This document shows positions 18,074-31,692 of a DNA stretch of 64,000 nt, one piece after another. Position 1 is the stretch's first letter, and each line of letters starts with the position of its first letter. Both the position numbers and the translations under genes were made by a program. This DNA comes from Petrosia ficiformis. Its lineage: Eukaryota > Porifera > Demospongiae > Haplosclerida > Petrosiidae. The notes below the pieces were generated by a model. The model did not search any database. It was not told where the DNA came from and worked only from the letters and a program-made list of their open reading frames with translations. The stretch lies in contig OX345639.1 of assembly GCA_947044365.1 (NCBI GenBank), positions 4,196,444 through 4,260,443 on the forward strand, written 5' to 3'.

Positions 18074-19055
18074 TTAATTATCATGATATTCATATGACTC
18101 TCCAGGACATGAAGACATTAACTCTCGTTCATCTTGATATTAATGATTATAGTAATGACATACATGCTAATTATAAAGTTTACCTTCATAAACTGTTCCA
18201 CACCATATACAATAATAATAATTCCTACGTAGATAACTTGTAATTAATAATAATTGATCTATAATCTATTGACAATTAGAATATTAAATACTATATCTAA
18301 AATAGGTATATACCTCTATTTCTTCTTCATCCTCATCTTCTTCATCTAATGAACATGTTGATGCCCAATACCATCTCTCTATAGGTTGTAATATACCCTG
18401 TTGATATTAACAATATTATTATACTGTATCTAATATTTGTATACTAGCACACATGTGTAGTGTCAAGCTGTTCACAAGCCTTCTGACTTTTTATTAAGTC
18501 TGACTTTACTTGACGTAGAGTAGTTACTGATCTCTGATGTTCTTGAAATCTTGTTAAAAATTCAATTTGCTTCATTTTATTAGTTTCTTCCTTCTCTTTA
18601 ACATGCATTTCTCTTCCTAAACCTTGTCTATCTAAATAATATAAAACACACATTCACTACATACATCACAGAATTACTATACATATAATTATATATAATT
18701 ATATAATAATTCGTACCTCCTTTAACACATATTGGTACTGGCTCAGTTTGACCTATACCTATACATCAAGATGCCCATGTCAATTTAATCACATTATAAT
18801 TAAAACACACATACCAGTCTTGCCAAGAGCAGTTCCTGATTTATAACCCATTTTATATAGCATTGAGTAACCTAAGTTATCCCTTGGTATTGGCTTCGAT
18901 AGACCTTCCTTTCTGATTCTTGTTTCTTCTTCTTTCTTTGTACGTTTCACTTCTTTCTTTTTCTCACAAATGGTTCCTCCTTTTCTCTTGATATTTTTTC
19001 GTCCCTTTTGTTCATCATCTTCGAGGAAAATATCTGACATATAATCATCTTCCAT
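18074..19055 (-). CDS. GPATCH11: G-patch domain protein 11 (CCDC75)
   Basis: G-patch proteins bind and stimulate DEAH-box RNA helicases; GPATCH11 is a nuclear protein tied to RNA processing. The first exon starts MEDDYMSDIFLEDDEQKGRK, runs through a basic KKEVKRTKKEEE segment, and gives the G-patch core DNLGYSMLYKMGYKSGTALG. Later exons give GQTEPVPICVKGG, a coiled coil with LIKSQKACEQLDTTH, and QPIERWYWAST followed by an acidic run. The C-terminal DUF4187 zinc-finger-like domain reads YCIWCGTVYE, then across a 51-base intron DERELMSSCPGESYEYHDN and a TAA at 18074. That last exon is too small for simple open-frame searches and was found from the family pattern. The start ATG is at 19055. All family landmarks are in order. 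Confidence 0.92.
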
Positions 19056-19103
19056 ATGTGTAATTAATGGGCGTTGTAATGGGCGTGATTTATCGACTGA
19101 TTG

Positions 19104-19115
19104 TACGCATGCGCA
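19104..19115. promoter_or_regulatory. NRF1-like site upstream of GPATCH11
   Basis: TACGCATGCGCA, 49 bases before the GPATCH11 start codon, differs at one base from the palindromic NRF1 consensus (YGCGCAYGCGCR). A second partial GCGCAGTTG follows at once. CpG-bearing sites are rare in this AT-rich window, which makes it stand out. The function is inferred from the motif only. Confidence 0.45.
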
Positions 19116-19274
19116 GTTGCGCAGTTGTGCATTGTATGTATTTTTACAAGTTTAGTCAAATCAAACAGTAATTATCATTTATTGCAATTAATTTGTAGAG
19201 AAAGGTATACATGTACTTTCATTGGTTTCACAAGATGATAAGTCAAATGGCATCATTGATGTTATTTGGAGAGT

Positions 19275-19732: not shown

Positions 19733-19891
19733 ATGGCATTAAAAAAGGAGTTTAGCCTTCCTAAACCAGATACAAGACTAGTGATATTTGGAGATGTTGT
19801 ATTCAAACTTAAATACAAAATGAGGTTAATAATTAAGATAACAATAATATTATTAATTTTATAATATAATATATATATATATAATATATAA

Positions 19892-19976
<85 letters not shown>

Positions 19977-20029
19977 TATATATATATATATGTATATATA
20001 TATAATATATATATAATTATATATATATA

Positions 20030-20072
<43 letters not shown>

Positions 20073-21133: not shown

Positions 21134-24100
21134 TTATGTGATGAGGTGACTTAGTTTAAATGTAATATGCCATTCTTGACTTTCAGGTGGTGTAGATTCT
21201 TTGGGAGATGATTGTTTCCTTGATAATGATTAAAATTATAATAGTATAATTTAATACTTCAGTTATATTACCTGTAAGGTGAGTCATCTTTATCTTCTTG
21301 CACAAGTGGTCCTCTCTTTCTTGAACATATTTCAGTGTATTTGCGAAGATTAGAAACCATTGTATAGGGTAGTGTACCAATAGTAAATATTCCACACTCA
21401 ATCTCTTGATCTGATGCAGTTCCTTGTTGCATTGAGACAACTGTGAAAAGAAGACAATAACATTAAATATAATGTAATATTTACATGGAACTCACAGTCC
21501 AGCAATGATTCAAAGTCTGGAACACCATACGATGTATTAGAATATAGTTTACTGAGTTGAGGTTGTGATGGTCTTCTCACAGATAGAGCAGGACCGCCTG
21601 TCTTAAGTGCAAGGTGTAGGAGTGCAGAGGCCAGCTCATCAGGTGGACTGTTGATATTAGTCAGGAAAATTCTAATATCAAGATAACGCTGTACATGTTT
21701 GTCTTCAATAATATCACTCAGAAAATCTGTGAACCACTGTATAATTAACAAGGTTCATAATATTCACTGTATAATGTATTCTGTCACATGTACCTCATAA
21801 TCATTACCGCTTGGTGTTACCCAGATGAAGTATAATTTAGTTAAAGCAGGATGACATCTGTATGTATTAAAAGAATATTCATTATGATATACCACTAATA
21901 GCTCTTACTAACTTACCCACAATGACAACTTGTTGATCGTCTGTACTCCAGGAATCTCTGGATTATATTCCTACATGTGTGAGGACCATCTCCCCCACAC
22001 ACTAGCACAGCAACACGATAATCAAACAGTATATTTACTCCTGGACCAAATCTATGCAATTATGAAATAGTGTGTTATGGATTAGTAATTAGTGTTTAAC
22101 TTACGGTCCAGATATTGTTGCTTTTAATGATGGTTGTATCACTTCTATCTCTCCATTCTTAGGCTTTGGATTCAGAGGATTGGTCTTGAACCTCTGATAA
22201 GATTCTTTCAACCAAACACTACCAGTGTGTGGTAAATACACTTTCAGTTTCTGATAAAAATGAATAAATAACTTCATCAGCATTAAATGTATATGCCCTT
22301 ACTTGTTCCTTGTTGCTTGAGCTAACTGCACAAGATTGCCAATCAAAGTAGCCTGGATAAATGAACATTAAATGAAAGATTATAGTATAATGACTTTTAT
22401 AAACTTACCAATTTCAGGGATGTTAACAGTGATATATTGTCCTGGTAAAGATTTGAAATGTGTAGGTTTATCAAGTTCAACAGATAATACTCTTGATGTT
22501 TCATCATAAGGAAATGCTTTGGTAATGCCAACAGAATAACGTGGCATTATTAGTACTGAGTACAATCTCTCTAACACAAAGACAAAACCAACAACCAGCA
22601 ACCATTTCCAAAAAGATGGATTGTAATTATTAACACCATGAATAATGATAAGAAGATAAAATAACGATAGCCCAATCCAATGTAAACAATGGAATCCAAC
22701 GAAACGACACATTTTACGAAGTGGATTAATTGAGGAAATGCTCATTATTAAAAGAATTAAAATCATTACTAATCCAGTAATCAACGGATTTATGTGAGAC
22801 TTCAAATTAACCACAAAATTATCGGCTTTGCTTGTGGAATTCGATTTATCATCAAATGCAAATGAACCGAAGTGAGTAAATAAATGAACTGCACTCCAAA
22901 ACGTAAGACCTCCAGCAATAATGACATGAAATATTAAAGACTGCATCAGTGGTAGAACCTAATATATAAGTCGAGATAAAATATGATAGAACTACAATAA
23001 AGCTTTACCTTATTAAGAAATATACTCCCTCTCATTATATTAATCAGTCCCCTCATCATTGGTAATAAAATAATAACTGAATTCATACTCAGAACTGGAC
23101 CAGTTCCATATGACCACTTACTCCAGCCTTGTTTACTAGTAGACAAAACTCCAGCCAGCAGTAATATGATGTTTAGTATTACATACAACGAGAGCCAAAC
23201 CACAAAGGAAGTATGCATTGTCAAGAAGCATGATATTTTACTAGAGATTCTCTGCCTCGCATTTAGATTTCCCTCCACACCTTTTGTCTGACCATATTTG
23301 GCTATGAGACCTGAATCACTTATGTACAATCGATGTTTAGCTAACAAATCTATCAATTCTATGAATGTAATTATCCTTGTTTCCTCAGGATCTGCAGCCT
23401 ATTAGAGACATGCAATGTTAAATTGTATAACAACAAATGTAGTACACTACCTGAAGTATTCCATCAACCATTCTTTCTATATCTTCTTTTGGAACCTAAA
23501 GATACAAATTAATCAATGAATTTGGTACAATATATCATTAATGTATTCTACTCACTTCAAATTCTGCTGCAGTTAAACTTGTCTCTAATATGTTGTGAAG
23601 CTCTCTCTATCAAATTAGTAATATATTAAGTTATACTGTATATAGATATTATAATGTTACCTTTGTCATATGCTCAGCACTTCTCAACTTATGAACAATC
23701 TTCATTTGTGCACCAATTGCCATTGCCTATAACATAAATAAAGATTTGATAATTGATTAATTATTATTTGCAAAGTAGTAAACCTTTTGTTGTTTTTCTC
23801 TGATCTCAATTTCAGAACTTAAGCTTGAAGCTGACAATTGACGAGTAAGTCCTTCCCTATTAGTCACCTCAGTAATAATACCAGTGTAGAATATCTCTCC
23901 TTCAATTACAAAACTCGAAACAACTACTTCAACTGGAAATTCTTTTCCTGATTTAGAAATACCAAAAACCTGAAAAAGGATATGTATACTTACTACAGTA
24001 TTGTTCACTTGGATTGATTCCATTACTACATATACCCATTTAACCTGTACTACTATAAATATTTCCCCAAGTATATCTTTGCCAAGATAAGAAAGTGAAC

Positions 24101-27100
24101 TGTAATTATTGTAGTACTCACCGAGTATAGTCTAGCATGTTTCTGTTCTTCTGGAGCAACATGATGTTTTCTAATATGAAAAATAATATAATAAATTATA
24201 TTATCATGAAAGTTAGAGATTTACAAACTTGATATATTCCATTGCATATTCTGTTTTCTTGTTAACACCATTCTGATGTTTCTCCTTAAATCTTTCTGGC
24301 ATTATCATTTGAAGTGAGCTACCAATAGCTTCTCCTGGTGTGTAACCAAACATCTTCACAGCTCCACTACTCCAAAATACCAGCTCTCCACATGCATTAG
24401 CAGAAACTATAGCATCATCTGACATCTGCATTACAGAACGTAATGTATTGTCCACTAGCATTTCTCTTTTCCTATGAAACAATATATTACTATTTAAAAT
24501 TAATAAAAAGGTTGTCTTACTTTCTTGTAAAACTAGGGGAGCGAGATAGACTCCTGGTCCGAGGAAGTAACATTTCTTTCTCAATGTCAGGAGCCTGCAA
24601 ATTTATGGCATTCTTTCTCATTCTTCTCTGATGAAGAGGACCCGAATTGATAGAACCAGATGTGTGAAGTGGGCAAACTCTTGGAAATCCTCCTTCTTCA
24701 TCAGATGGGCTATCTCTCTTTTCAATCTCGCCAGGGGAAGACCTGATGGAAGACTGAAGTGGTGACTCAGAGCGTATTGTAATGGAGGGAGCATCGATGT
24801 GATTTGGTTTTCTGAAACTGTTGCTCCTCTGAAATATTTCAGAAACTTTAGTATGAGCTCTCGAGGAGTGCCTAGTAATACGAAGTGATCCTCCATTAGA
24901 TGGAATACTGCTTAAGCTACAAAGAGAATCACGAATATCATTATTCGATTTCCTCTCATCTTCACTTTCAGATTCATCCTCTTTTTCTTCTGAATTACTA
25001 TCTTCATCAGTATCAACATCTTCTACATAAGTATTCTTTTCACCAAACCCAAAGTTGGTAGCATTTATTTGAGGTGTATCAGGTGCCATAGGTGTAAGAT
25101 TAGCTGCAATAGCTACGGGACCAAAATGTACATTTGAGATTTTACGTCGAGGAATATTTTTATTTGTTCCATTTTCATTTGATAGTTGGGTATTGACTGT
25201 CATCTCTAAAACATCCACTGATTTCTTTCTAATTTGTACAAAATTTGTCTCATTTATCAAATCTTTAGTCAACTTTGAGGGACCAATGGATGACTCGAGT
25301 GAGATCTTATCTTCTCTTGACCAACCTTTGTAACAGGAAGCACATCCTAATTGAAAGCCAAACAATTCTTCTTCTTCCAATTTCTTGGTTTGTTGTTCAT
25401 CACTCTTTATTGCACCAAATATAAGATATACAGCAATAACTAATATGACCCATATACCATATAAAACCTTGATATACAATGGAGTTGTGTTTAGCACCAA
25501 AAAACCCTATATAAAAGAAAACATTCAATATCCTCATGTGTGTTTACATTAGTTTACTTACCAGGAAAATATTACTGAGCCCAAAGAACACTATAGATAT
25601 ACCAATTCTCTTGTGCCATACTTTGACAATTGCATTTTTGATTGGTGTAATATGTAGGAGTTTGAGTCCTGGTTGAATCAGCACACAAGCAATAATAATG
25701 ACCAATCCAATAATACTGTGTAGATGTTGAAAATGTCTCTCATTATTAACCTCTTTATACACAATAGCTAGTATCAGTCCAACCATTGCTAACAATATGG
25801 CAAATATTTGGAAAATCATATGAGGCAAATATTTCTTGTGATTTGCTAGAAGTGCTCCCAGCGGTATAATGAAACCAAATGTCATGGCCATTATTCCTGC
25901 ATGAGTATATATAAGTTGTATATGTGTAATATCAGGTGACGAAGTACATGTTTCATTGGATGGGTTGAGGAGTCTGGAGTAAAGATTGTATAAATCTTCA
26001 GTGATATTACTTGTAGCATTTTCAAGAACTGTTATGGTAGCTAGTGGTTGACACTTTCCACTACATAGTAATTGATAAACTCCTTCCTGTTGAAAATAGT
26101 ATCCTTCTTGAAGCCCTGGATCTAATAATTAAGGAAGTACATATCAGGAAATGGAAATCGAGATCATGAAGATCTCAGGAGCTACTTATTGGCAGCTTGA
26201 TATTGTGTATAAACAAATGAAACCTATTAGAAACTGTTAGCTATTATCACATCAACTCACTTATCATTTGTATGTCACCATAGTCTCTCACAATATCACC
26301 AGAACAACTAGTATTAACTAATTGAAGATTACAGTCAGTAATACCAACAAGAGTCCAGTAAACTACATCACCAGTTAATACTACCAAGTCTTCATTACAA
26401 ATGTCACACAATGTTATTTTGTGTTGTGCAGTAACAACAGAGAATTTTCCTGTTGGATTATTAGTAACAGGACACCAGTAATTATAATCACCAGAAGAGC
26501 TGAACAAGACACCATCACCTAGTGAAGGAAATGCATTAATGTATACATACATACACACATAATGCTTTAAGGTGGGGGTAATTTTTTTTTGATTTCATAA
26601 TTACAAACTGTATATCCACTCCTACTTAACAAAAATTATCTTAAAACTGTTGACTAATTTCGTTATATAACTTTGTTATACATGTGTGATACTTGATTAA
26701 TCTTATAATCCGCAAAATTGTATTATTTTTGTATTCATATGGTAATGTACTCACTGTCTCTATCTACTGGTATGAATCTATACGTATCAAGAGATACTAA
26801 TTCTGTGAAATTGCATTTCAATAAGTTTCCATTTCTGTCTCTCCATTGTGAATGTTCACCCATCAGAATATATGGACTCTCCTGACAAGACTCTAAATAC
26901 AATGTTATGAGATCATAATAATTATACTTACAGTTGATATATGCATGAACATTCCGCATAATAGATAGATAGATAGATAAATGGATAGATAGTAGTGAAA
27001 CTAACCTGGTGATACTGCACTACTGCAAGCACACAGCAGTAATTGAAATAATACTGCATGTACAAGTAGTAGAATACATTGAGGATACAGTATTGTCATC

Positions 27101-27102
27101 AT
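21134..27102 (-). CDS. Cytochrome b561 - PAS - EF-hand-like - NADPH oxidase fusion protein
   Basis: One gene of about 20 exons, coding for roughly 1,300 residues. Domains in order: signal peptide (MMTILYPQCILLLVHAVLFQ, start 27102); a Cys-containing ectodomain of about 200 residues; a cytochrome b561 module with four candidate heme histidines (THAGIM, LPHMIFQ, HLHSIIG, VWHKRIG); a long acidic, Ser-rich cytosolic linker; one PAS domain with its PAC end (DDAIVSANACGELVFWSSGA, SKSGKEFPVEVVVSS, FYTGIITEVTNRE); a degenerate EF-hand (ADPEETRIITFIEL); and a NOX membrane core with two HX13H pairs (LIFH..AVHLF and CLHW..IIHG). The C-terminus resembles the NOX FAD/NADPH domain (LPGQYITVNIPEIG, GPFGPG, LYFIWVTPSGNDYEWFTDFL), but key cofactor motifs are changed. 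One 980-base exon joins the last b561 helix to the linker, and one exon joins the EF-hand to the first NOX helices. Introns between modules are short, so a single gene is well supported. It is divergent from HEATR5. Confidence 0.85.
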
Positions 27103-27238
27103 CAGACTCTTCTTGCTGCAGTTTTGATTGTTTGTATGCAAAACACTTTTTTATAACGGATAAAACTAATTTAGAGTAGTCACACCCATTAATGTCAGTA
27201 GTCACACCCATTAATTACTTGTGGCTGTGGCTGGAAAG
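27103..27238. promoter_or_regulatory. Divergent promoter, b561-NOX fusion / HEATR5
   Basis: 136 bases separate the two start codons. Inside is a 22-base tandem duplication (about 27171-27215) whose unit contains AGTCACACCCATTAAT. CACACCC is the kind of box bound by Krüppel-like factors. Function is inferred from position and motif. Confidence 0.5.
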
Positions 27239-30100
27239 ATGTTACTACTAGATGAAGAGAAGTTGGCAGGTATTTCAGACAGTAAAAGAATAGAAATATT
27301 GCTCCAATGGTTGAAACAACTCCCACATACAATACAGACAACCTCTAGAGTGAGTTAATAGTAGTAGAAAAATGTCTTCTCTAACTGCCACACCCATTTT
27401 ACAGGAACAATTGAAGAAGAACCAACAGACTTTAGTTATACAACTACACAAGTTATTAACAAGATCTCTTCCACCATCGCTACGTTCTCTATTGTCATCA
27501 TCATATGTTTCATTATACTATGCTGGGGATAGTTCTAGTTTATTTGAAACGATTAATAAGTGTAATGATGTCGTTAAAAGCAAAGATGAAACAACAGCTA
27601 ATAAGATGTGTGTTAATTACATTGAATATTATTTGTGGTTATTAATTTATTCACATAGGACTGCATTACAATGTATAGGAGATTTGTATAGACAACATGG
27701 AAGAATGGTTAATTCAATACTTCATTCATCATCTCTACTCATCATTATCTTCTTACCATCCTCCCCCCTCCTCATCTATTAATACTCATCTCATTATCTC
27801 TCCCTCTCCTCTCATCATCTCTTCCCCTCCTCTTCCTCCTTTATTAATCCATTTCCCTCTCATCTCTATCTCTTCTCTCATCACCTCTTCTATGCCCCTC
27901 CTCTCCCCCTCCTCTCCCTCTCCTCTCATCATCTCTTCCCCTCCTCTTCCTCCTTATAATCCATTTCCCTCTCATCTCTATCTCTTCTCTCATCACCTCT
28001 TCCCTACCTCTCCTCTCCCCCTCTTCTTCCTGTCTCTCCCATCTTCCTCCTCCTCATCTCTCACCTCTTTTTCCTCCACTCTCTTTGCCTTAGGCTGGTA
28101 GCTTATTTTTGGATGTTATACAAACCCTATTAAAAGCTGTCAAGTCTAGTGAGGTAATAACAGGGGCTATACCCATACTATTATACTAATGTTTACAATC
28201 CTAATTTACATTTCCTTGTTATAATTCTGTCTTATTTCAATACCTGTCAGTATCGAGGTGATATATTTCATTGTATGGAGTCAATATTATATGGGTTAGG
28301 AACATCGGCATTATCTGCTCATAAAGATATTTATAAATGTATTAAGAATGGACTAACAGACAAACATACATCTGTACGAAGTGTTGCAGCAAAGGTAATC
28401 TGTTAATATTATATTTCTGTTATAATTAATAGTAATTAATAGTTGTATTTGAACAGAATTGTGTGTTTTATAATTATATTTTCATGAATTAAGTCATACA
28501 CCTGAATACACACATAACATTACCACATAACCAAACTATACTACACCATTAACCATTGAATTCATGAGAATGTTATATTGGTTAAAATACTAATAGAATT
28601 ACAATTTGAAATACAGATAAGGGTTACTACAAGAAACATATACATGTACACTCATATAATTTATATATTCTAATACATATATATATATACACAGGAGACC
28701 AATGCTCATATAATGTAATACTTGCATATATATATATATATATATATACAGGCTCATATAATCTATATATTCTAATACATACATATATGTATACATGGGA
28801 GACCAATGCTCATATAATGTAATACTTGCATATATATATATAATATATATACAGGCTCATATAATCTATATATTCTAATACATACATATATATATACACA
28901 GGAGACCAATGCTCATATAATGTAATACTTGCATATATATATTATATATATATATACAGGCTCATTTAATCTATATAATTATTCTAATACATACATATAT
29001 GTATACATGGGAGACACATGTTATACTTAATAATGACACATTTAAATATATACATGAAGTCTTATACATTCCATGTTTATTATACTATATCATTTTGAAC
29101 TGTCGGTTTGTAATGGTTTCTGGTCAGTTCAATCATCAGAATTAAAAATCTGTGGTTAATCTACAATACTATAGTAACTCATGGCTTCATCTATTCTCTC
29201 TCTCTAGTGTGCTCTTGAATTATCCAAACACTCCTCATTCCTGTACTGTCAGGAACTGGACTCAGTCTCTCAAGCTTGTTTAAAATCCTTTGAAGGATCT
29301 ACATATCATGTTCGTTGTTCTGTAGCATGTTTATTGGGATCCCTGTTAGCACTCACACAAAAACCATTACCTGCATATGATAAAGGAAAGGTAATAAACT
29401 AAACTATGAATAATAAATGAGGTGGTAATAATGTGTATATATTAATTTATTAGGTAAAGCTTCCATCATTGGATGATGTTCTGTCAATCCTATCAAACGG
29501 GTTTATTAGAGGTGGTGGAGGTTTCCTAAAGACTGGAGGACCTGAACTGCTAAAAGGAGGGATAGCTAATCGTGATGTTCGTGTTGGTGTAACACAGGTA
29601 TGTACTGTTATTAATAAATGAAGAATGCTCAGTAATAATTATAAACCAAAACTTACTATACTCTTCCATTGAACCCAATATGTGAAGGACTAGTTTACTA
29701 ACTAGACTGGCAGTGGTGACCAGTATAATGTCCGATATATTTCTCCACAGGCTTATGTGTTCTTCCTATCAGAGATGGGTGGAGTCTGGTTGGAGAGACA
29801 TCTTCCATTAATTCTTTGTCACATTTTAGATTTATTGACTCATTCTAAAACTACATCAACTCATATTGATGCAGTGTATTCTAGAAAATGTATAGGATTT
29901 ATCATAAAATCAGTATTCAATAGATTATTAGGAGAGTCGGCTCAACTGGCTGCAACTAAACATCTCTGTTCTCTTATAATACAATACACCAACCATACTT
30001 CATCAAATGGATTATCAAATGAATTAGGTATCTATTTATGTATGTATCTGTCTATCTATCTATGTACGTATGTATGTATATATGTATGTATGTATGTATG

Positions 30101-30153
<53 letters not shown>

Positions 30154-30179
30154 TGTCTGTATGTATGTATGTATGTATG

Positions 30180-30240
<61 letters not shown>

Positions 30241-31692
30241 CATGTATATATGTATGTATGTATGTATTTATGTACGTATGTATGCATGTATGTATGTATG
30301 TATGTATGTTCATTAGGTGATGAAGGAGAGAAGTCAGGTGAGGTAGGAGGAGGAAGTGATAAAGTGGTAGATAAGAATTCTCGTCAACATGTATTAGTGT
30401 GTGGATTAATTGAAATATCATCTCTAATTCTGTCACTCAATACTGCTGCTTCATCACTACTTGTATCTGATAATGGAATAATGGATGGAGATAACCCCTC
30501 CCCTTTAATTGAAGCCATTAGTAATACATTATTACACCCCAGTTTGGCAGCAAGGTGTGTTATATCATTGTTATATCATTAGGTAGTGATACTCTCAGTA
30601 GTAATTAGATGTAGTAATTAAATTCACAATATTCAAACCACATATATATAATTATATTATATGTATACAAACTATAATCTCTATTGGCTTCTTGAGTGGT
30701 TTCACTTAATTGTGTGTTTTCAAGTGTAATTTAATCTCATATACAGTTGCAGCATGTGTATAGCATAACACAATTACATAGACACACACACACGCATAAT
30801 TATAGTATTTTTAATATAATTAATGTGATATCTACAATAAATATTATATTAATTACAAACACAGACTGTTGTCATGGAAATCATGTTCACTTAATTCGTA
30901 GATTGTCTGGTGCTGGATGTATTCACTGTGTAGGATCTTCATTGCCTTCTCTAATAACTCCATTAATAGATTACTTAATGAAGGGGCTTAAAGTTAATAG
31001 GGGTAATTCTGATGGTCTAGTTGGATACTCATATGCTTTGGCCTCATTACTGAGTACTGTACAGTTTAGTGAACTAGGTGTACCATCAGCTAAAGCACAA
31101 GAAGTATTTCTGTTTGGAATGGAACTCATTAAGACTCCAGCAAATGGAGGAAAACTTTCTATAGCTAGTGTGCAAAGCGGATGGGCATTAATTGGAGCTT
31201 ATCTCAGCCTTGGTAAGATATTACATACCAATGTTTATAATTTATTGTCATTGTTATCATCTTATCTAATTATCCATCTCATTATTCATTGTCATTATCC
31301 ATTGTTATCATCTCGTATCCATTGTAATTACCCCTAATTGATTACCCTTCGTTATTCATTGTTATTGCTTTCAGGTCCTGCATATGTCAGATCTAATATT
31401 AGAAATATTCTTACATTGTGGCATGGAGTATTTCCACATTCTCGTCAACAACTCACTGCAGAGATGAAAACAGGAACATCATCGTCATGGAAACACACTC
31501 TTGAAACAAGAGTAGGAGCTCTAACTTGTAAGATATACATTTGTGCCATATGTTTTATATTTCCTGTGTGTGTTTGTGTTTTATAGCTATTGTGGAGTTT
31601 ATATCTTCATGTCAATCATTACTCTCACCTGCTATTACCAAGATCTTAATGTTACCATTAGATTCAGCCCTTGCCATGACATCAGGGTATGT

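Follow-up and report, generated by a model that had tools for sequence, protein, structure and literature searches.

Replaced FAD- and NADPH-binding residues in DspNOX, a cytochrome b561-PAS-NADPH oxidase fusion protein encoded by the demosponge Petrosia ficiformis

The described DspNOX proteins and the gene of Petrosia ficiformis

DspNOX proteins have been described from the demosponges Amphimedon queenslandica, Xestospongia bergquistia, Tethya wilhelma, and Ephydatia muelleri (Hewitt and Degnan 2022, BMC Biol 20:212; PMC9524095). According to the accessible parts of that paper, they are reported from demosponges only and are treated as calcium-regulated generators of reactive oxygen species (ROS), the methods comprising a screen for the four histidines. 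A full-text literature search for the term 'DspNOX' returned no other paper, and a search combining b561, NADPH oxidase, PAS domain, and sponge returned nothing else relevant, as judged by title. The gene considered here is located on the minus strand (21134..27102) of the window, i.e. the whole analysed stretch of 64,000 nucleotides of the P. ficiformis genome, and consists of 20 exons coding for 1502 amino acids (aa). Its product is almost certainly a DspNOX, one demosponge gene encoding one polypeptide, and P. ficiformis is a further DspNOX species outside the four published ones. This order of domains was not known to the initial annotation from any described protein, but had been published in 2022 (PMC9524095). 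The fusion itself being known, what is new, as far as the sequences go, is the consistent loss of cofactor residues in six DspNOX sequences. In the accessible parts of the published description, a check of the FAD- and NADPH-binding residues was not found, and its main text gives no hits for 'HPFT', 'catalytic', or 'pseudoenzyme'. This loss makes the published functional label doubtful; the canonical entry of electrons through NADPH and FAD has most probably been lost in DspNOX.

Splicing of the gene by hand from the genomic DNA, followed by translation, gave 1502 codons without internal stop between the start at 27102 and the stop at 21134. All 19 introns (49 – 236 bp) have GT-AG borders; their retention brings a stop in 16 cases and the remaining three are not multiples of three, so that every retained intron would cause either a stop or a shift of frame. 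Exons also bridge module borders, as the initial annotation had noticed, exon 5 spanning the last b561 helix and the linker, and exon 12 the EF-hand remnant and the NOX helices. A homologue search over about 5.8 billion proteins, with 7999 candidates scored, returned at least 18 matches, five of which (P0001 – P0005) cover 74 – 96% of the query at 32 – 40% identity, each in a single protein (95 – 96% for P0001, P0004, and P0005; 86% for P0002; 74% for P0003). P0001 is a protein of 1528 aa encoded on a contig of 4965 bases, which is therefore probably a transcript. P0004 (Em0019g755a; E 3e-263; 96% coverage) and P0005 (Em0019g766a) are gene models, the prefix Em presumably standing for Ephydatia muelleri. 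The homology to Em0019g755a, presumably a model from one of the four published DspNOX species, is full-length. The 13 other listed matches cover 4 – 16% of the query and bear Pfam labels of PAS proteins. A second search, scored on aa 940 – 1460 (E ≤ 1e-10), gave among the matches listed the same five proteins and one nematode DUOX, and a third one with the NOX piece alone found nothing at 1e-8 among the 7999 scored candidates, shorter models from other sponges not being recovered. A misreading of two or three adjoining genes as one is extremely improbable in view of the in-frame exons, the short introns, the relatives that span the query in one protein, and the full-length DspNOX already published; it was rejected on the basis of the hand splicing, the intron retention test, and these relatives. 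As read from the genomic DNA, the locus is a single gene for one long membrane protein joining b561, PAS, and NOX core, in agreement with the initial annotation.

Dehydrogenase and heme core

The NOX cores of six DspNOX (the window protein and P0001 – P0005) were aligned with those of the DUOX encoded by the same genome and of the nematode DUOX (C. angaria; P0019), and were read at NOX2-numbered sites, the numbering being presumed for sites that are not named in the cited papers. A first set of replacements concerns the FAD-binding lobe (aa 1163 – 1280; 22027..22541; Pfam and alignment). The flavin pocket of human NOX2 is formed by P339, F340, T341, and R356, according to the accessible part of its description (PMC9711523). 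In all six DspNOX, F340 is replaced by C and R356 by P, and T341 is lost (A/Y/P/Y/Y/Y); P339 is lost in four (S/P/P/R/R/R). The window protein thereby aligns QSCA (aa 1212 – 1215; 22327..22338) with the NOX motif HPFT. A second set concerns the NAD lobe (aa 1281 – 1445; 21361..22026; Pfam and alignment), of which the NADPH loop GAGIGVTPF reads CGGDGPHTC in the window protein (aa 1290 – 1298; 21973..21999; by alignment) and CGGNSPHTA, CGGEGPPMA, CGGNGPHAS, and CAGDGPHAS (twice) in the other ones. Hence, G408 is replaced by C and V413 by P in all six, and T414, P415, and F416 are lost throughout. Thirdly, the column of the catalytic cysteine C537 holds I/I/V/L/L/L. Lastly, the C-terminal phenylalanine, present in the own-genome DUOX, occurs in none of the six DspNOX, in a tail that aligns loosely. 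Similarly, neither the FAD motif (H[PSA]F[TS][LIMV]) nor the NADPH motif of Hajjar 2017 was found in any of the six. In NOX2, the T341K mutant shows no FAD incorporation, and G412, P415, E568, and F570 are disease sites, according to the part of the source that was accessible (PMC13296129).

The own-genome DUOX has kept all of these sites and carries both Hajjar motifs, and the C. angaria DUOX carries the FAD motif. Furthermore, the genome contains another NOX-like gene, which reads EWHPFTLTS in one exon (L016) and GAGIGVTPF in another one (L014), about 4 kb apart on the same strand; these are read here as two exons of one NOX2-like gene. Because this gene and the DUOX keep the motifs, the change of cofactor residues is a property neither of the genome nor of the method. 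The nematode DUOX has single substitutions to A, S, K, and P at P339, T341, R356, and R513, with the rest kept, and R513 was not counted as evidence since it varies there. The core of the own-genome DUOX is encoded by one uninterrupted open reading frame (ORF) of 1028 codons (L013 1789-4875, C11), as against the 20 exons of the DspNOX gene.

Within domain limits set by the present authors, identity between the window protein and its five relatives amounts to 58 – 69% for the NAD lobe and 63 – 74% for the PAS domain, compared with 39 – 45% for the NOX helices, 35 – 41% for the FAD lobe, 29 – 40% for b561, 23 – 27% for the linker, and 24 – 29% for the ectodomain, where present. Since conservation of the NAD lobe comes close to that of the PAS domain, the change in the dehydrogenase is, to judge from these identities, not decay. 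With its nucleotide residues gone, the NAD lobe of DspNOX is under about as much constraint as that of an enzyme, given that between the sponge and nematode DUOX, presumably a working pair, identity is 56% in this lobe, compared with 42% in the helices and 39% in the FAD lobe. In addition, five cysteines (1214, 1290, 1314, 1316, and 1318; exons 14, 16, and 17) are invariant in the six DspNOX and absent from both DUOX, C1214 standing at the position of the flavin phenylalanine and C1290 at that of the first NADPH-loop glycine. A rewired oxidase may be imagined in which these fixed cysteines replace the cofactor sites, electrons come from ascorbate through b561 or from a thiol or metal centre, and a PAS domain that senses oxygen through heme is in control, a single polypeptide with up to five hemes thus both sensing oxygen and moving electrons over the membrane independently of NADPH; as a whole, this is quite improbable.

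The six-helix heme core (aa 941 – 1162; 22542..23257; NOX5 alignment and hydrophobicity) is kept. In the window protein it contains H1034, H1048, H1052, T1084, G1085, H1116, and H1130, and the corresponding NOX2 sites H101, H115, H119, T178, G179, H209, and H222 are kept in 39 of the 42 cells of the six DspNOX, the three missing ones being a gap in the gene model of P0005. H101, H119, T178, and G179 mark ROS-generating NOX, according to the accessible part of Zhang 2013; this signature and the four heme histidines in two pairs are present in the window protein. The two HX13H pairs reported by the initial annotation are H1034/H1048 and H1116/H1130; the second pair is HX13H in all six DspNOX as against HX12H in the two DUOX. 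Ferric_reduct (PF01794) was not listed for the window protein in the Pfam search; Cytochrom_B561, PAS, FAD_binding_8, and NAD_binding_6 all scored over their cut-offs. The region aa 859 – 1423 was aligned by phmmer with the solved NOX5 (6sz5; E 6.7e-37).

Several observations weigh against a loss of the NADPH/FAD entry. FAD_binding_8 (aa 1178 – 1275 in the window protein) and NAD_binding_6 (aa 1283 – 1435) exceed their Pfam cut-offs in all six DspNOX; G410 and G538 are kept in six, G412 in five, H338 in three, and P339 in two. Because these domains still score and some of these residues are kept, an unusual mode of cofactor binding is possible. Strong conservation of the NAD lobe is also to be expected of a working enzyme, as the DUOX pair illustrates. 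Moreover, the comparison covers six DspNOX, with E. muelleri as the one published species assigned by name, and the two structure models are of low confidence and not informative on the cofactor sites. Together with the four heme histidines, H119, and the TG pair, the scoring domains favour the published reading of a working oxidase regulated by calcium and PAS, in which electrons pass from NADPH to FAD, over two hemes, and to oxygen outside. Such an oxidase is unlikely, since all six have replacements at F340, T341, and R356, at the catalytic cysteine, and over much of the NADPH loop, and none has a terminal phenylalanine.

The intact motifs of the DUOX and of the NOX2-like gene suggest another possibility, i.e. 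an acceptor in trans, of which the heme core would be fed, within a mixed complex, by the dehydrogenase of a partner such as NOX2 or DUOX. STEAP1, the nearest known precedent, is without an NADPH-binding domain and promotes iron reduction once fused to that of STEAP4, according to the accessible part of the source (PMC7363144). DspNOX has retained its dehydrogenase lobe, whereas STEAP1 has dropped its own. Feeding in trans is unlikely. A non-NADPH donor to the hemes, as proposed in the initial annotation, finds indirect support, most FAD and NADPH residues being replaced in all six DspNOX, in which the heme signature on the oxygen side persists.

PAS domain, EF-hand region, and b561 half

The PAS domain (aa 685 – 815; 23856..24458), matched by PAS_9 and PAS in Pfam (aa 690 – 813), has FixL as its best match in the Protein Data Bank (PDB; E 7.1e-12), and 13 of its 14 matches are FixL, DosP/YddU (which we take to be one and the same), or 'heme PAS' by entry name. 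His 745 stands in what is presumably the column of the heme histidine of FixL and is shared by the four DspNOX that have the region. Of the 13 other PAS proteins, each taken at its best-scoring aligned domain, 11 have a histidine in the same column; since it is so common there, His 745 is no proof of heme. A heme PAS deduced from this conserved residue was therefore rejected as not diagnostic. At the position that we take to be that of the distal arginine of FixL, the alignment reads no arginine in DspNOX. The likeness to FixL and Dos heme sensors nevertheless bears on a further alternative, i.e. a receptor instead of an enzyme, in which the sensing of oxygen or redox state would fall to the PAS domain and the hemes, and the transmission of the signal, with no net flow of electrons, to the dehydrogenase lobe and the linker. 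The conserved basic-serine islands of the linker and an NAD lobe conserved without its cofactor residues are in keeping with it. A receptor is made improbable by the commonness of the PAS histidine and by the heme core, where the oxygen-reducing signature is complete although a pure receptor could do without it.

The calcium control that belongs to the published reading rests on the EF-hand region, called degenerate in the initial annotation, which the present results bear out. The loop (aa 896 – 907; 23357..23392; DPEETRIITFIE; by alignment) has retained D at position 1 as well as E at position 12 in the window protein, a point in favour of a calcium-regulated oxidase. At position 12, P0001 – P0005 have N, G, N, N, and N, respectively, and none of the six DspNOX had an EF-hand Pfam model listed at E ≤ 10, a search in which most matches with E beyond about 0.1 are removed by the HMMER filters. 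According to the accessible part of Massari 2022, position 12 of an EF-hand loop is always Asp or Glu. Because it is non-acidic in all five relatives and no EF-hand model was listed, the label 'EF-hand calcium sensitive' is doubtful for the relatives; for the window protein, on the same alignment, it is uncertain. The accessible parts of Hewitt and Degnan (2022; PMC9524095) exempt E. muelleri from this label. With cofactor residues lost in all six and the EF-hand degenerate, the description of DspNOX as a calcium-regulated, superoxide-generating NADPH oxidase appears doubtful, and the proteins may well not make reactive oxygen as their name implies.

At the N-terminal end, exon 1 (27006..27102) encodes a putative signal peptide (about aa 1 – 26; hydrophobic peak of 2.42 at the N-terminus), followed by an ectodomain (aa 27 – 230; four exons; 25925..27024) with N-glycosylation sequons that is cupredoxin-like by eye only. 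A profile search returned as such only amicyanin (E 0.52 and 0.91) and nitrite reductase (E 1.5), amid unrelated matches, and a cupredoxin assignment was rejected as not significant. In the accessible parts of the published description, two cupredoxin domains are given for E. muelleri only, written 'at the C-terminal' (PMC9524095). The ectodomain of the window protein aligns to that of P0004 at 26% identity, and a cupredoxin-type ectodomain may, on such alignments, be general in DspNOX. Next comes the b561 core (aa 231 – 389; 25393..25924; Pfam and hydrophobicity), with His 238, 265, 299, and 334, confirming the four-histidine core of the initial annotation and providing two potential sites for heme, and matches to Cytochrom_B561 (PF03188; aa 255 – 353; 34.5 bits; cut-off of 23) and DUF2427 (aa 230 – 309; 24.3 bits; cut-off of 23.8). 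Besides the signal peptide, hydrophobic segments comprise about five helices within aa 232 – 389 and the NOX helices at aa 948 – 1163. With the N-terminus outside and five helices, the linker, the PAS domain, and the dehydrogenase are predicted to be cytosolic, in keeping with NOX topology. The linker (aa 390 – 684; 24459..25392; alignment) is long, acidic, and Ser-rich. It changes fast except for three basic/Ser islands of invariant columns (442 – 452, 558 – 565, and 673 – 676; RKKS-D-LE, SLRxTRHS, and RSxS), which resemble basophilic kinase sites.

Among the relatives, P0001 and P0005 have all four b561 heme histidines, P0002 and P0004 three (the latter in a gene model), and P0003 is without most of the region. 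Entry of electrons from ascorbate through the b561 half is a tentative proposal that is less than probable, and several points speak against it. P0002 has Tyr in the column of H265; b561 is among the less conserved domains; and PF03188 is matched by the window protein only, the four relatives with the region matching DUF2427, P0001 and P0002 below its cut-off. Both inner hemes would, in addition, need bridging across separate helix bundles. The ascorbate donor is the weakest step of the mechanism, because of the Tyr in P0002 and the match of relatives to DUF2427 instead of PF03188. The structure model of the b561 half is of low confidence (mean pLDDT of 63.6), with no Foldseek match at E ≤ 0.001.

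Hewitt and Degnan (2022; PMC9524095), in the accessible parts, assign to E. muelleri three rather than five extra helices, and report two further copies without the histidine motif. P0004 has no fourth b561 helix; the segment standing in its place corresponds to the P0005 segment read in a shifted frame (a run of 21 residues, where 300 shuffles gave at most 9). P0005 is without the first NOX histidine pair, and both models are without a part of the PAS domain that is present in P0003, a protein 87% identical to P0004. In view of the shifted segment, the missing pair, and the PAS part found in P0003, the exception of E. muelleri is better explained by gene models or splice forms than by a different protein. 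The public gene models Em0019g755a and Em0019g766a disagree over the same exons.

Around the gene, a HEAT-repeat-like gene may lie head-to-head on the plus strand, with a gap of about 270 bp (27102-27372) if its start is the ATG at 27372; its HEAT match, scored on a hand-joined piece, is below the Pfam cut-off. A shared promoter of both genes is possible. A neighbouring ORF on the minus strand (18789-19151) has a partial G-patch match (PF01585). Long AT-rich simple repeats, of which the ORFs consist of repeated Tyr/Ile codons, occur on both sides of the region (19857-20060 and 30023-30330).

Electron source and comparison with known systems

The favoured reading, with about an even chance of being correct as a whole, is a PAS-gated, NADPH-independent heme relay that has kept its dehydrogenase as a conserved lobe. 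The dehydrogenase would no longer pass electrons from NADPH through FAD and would have become a conserved lobe for regulation or docking; the PAS domain would gate the protein on oxygen, redox state, or a ligand, and the heme chain would be fed by another source, likeliest cytosolic ascorbate via the b561 half, either of the same chain or of a neighbouring one. DspNOX has been published as a sponge-specific, calcium-regulated ROS source from an early lineage of animals. Should its dehydrogenase be unable to hold FAD or NADPH and its EF-hand unable to bind calcium, this role would need either direct demonstration or withdrawal, and what is left is an unusual, strongly constrained protein coupling two heme relays and a sensor. 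If true, the relay would represent an animal oxidase with a changed electron source.

With the published DspNOX, as given in the accessible parts of their description, the window protein shares, in this order, the extra helices (b561/DUF2427), a putatively disordered region, PAS, an EF-hand-like region, the ferric reductase helices, and the FAD and NAD domains, as well as the four NOX histidines. The helices matching b561/DUF2427 lie N-terminal to the PAS domain and the NOX core in one protein. NOX5 (6sz5), the best solved relative, shares the six-helix two-heme core, an EF-hand region upstream, and the FAD and NAD lobes, and the oxygen-site signature of NOX in general (H119 and TG) occurs in DspNOX too. 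NOX5 has EWHPFTISS, GAGIGITPF, and an EF loop in ADADGNGAITFEEL, none of which is found in DspNOX, which adds b561, linker, and PAS. FixL, the closest PDB match of the PAS domain, shares the presumed column of the heme histidine with DspNOX but not the distal arginine, heme binding being putative. Finally, DspNOX differs from cytochrome b561/Dcytb (4o6y, 5zle) in being fused to PAS and NOX, in one relative without one of the histidines, and in relatives matching DUF2427 instead of PF03188; its use of ascorbate is putative.

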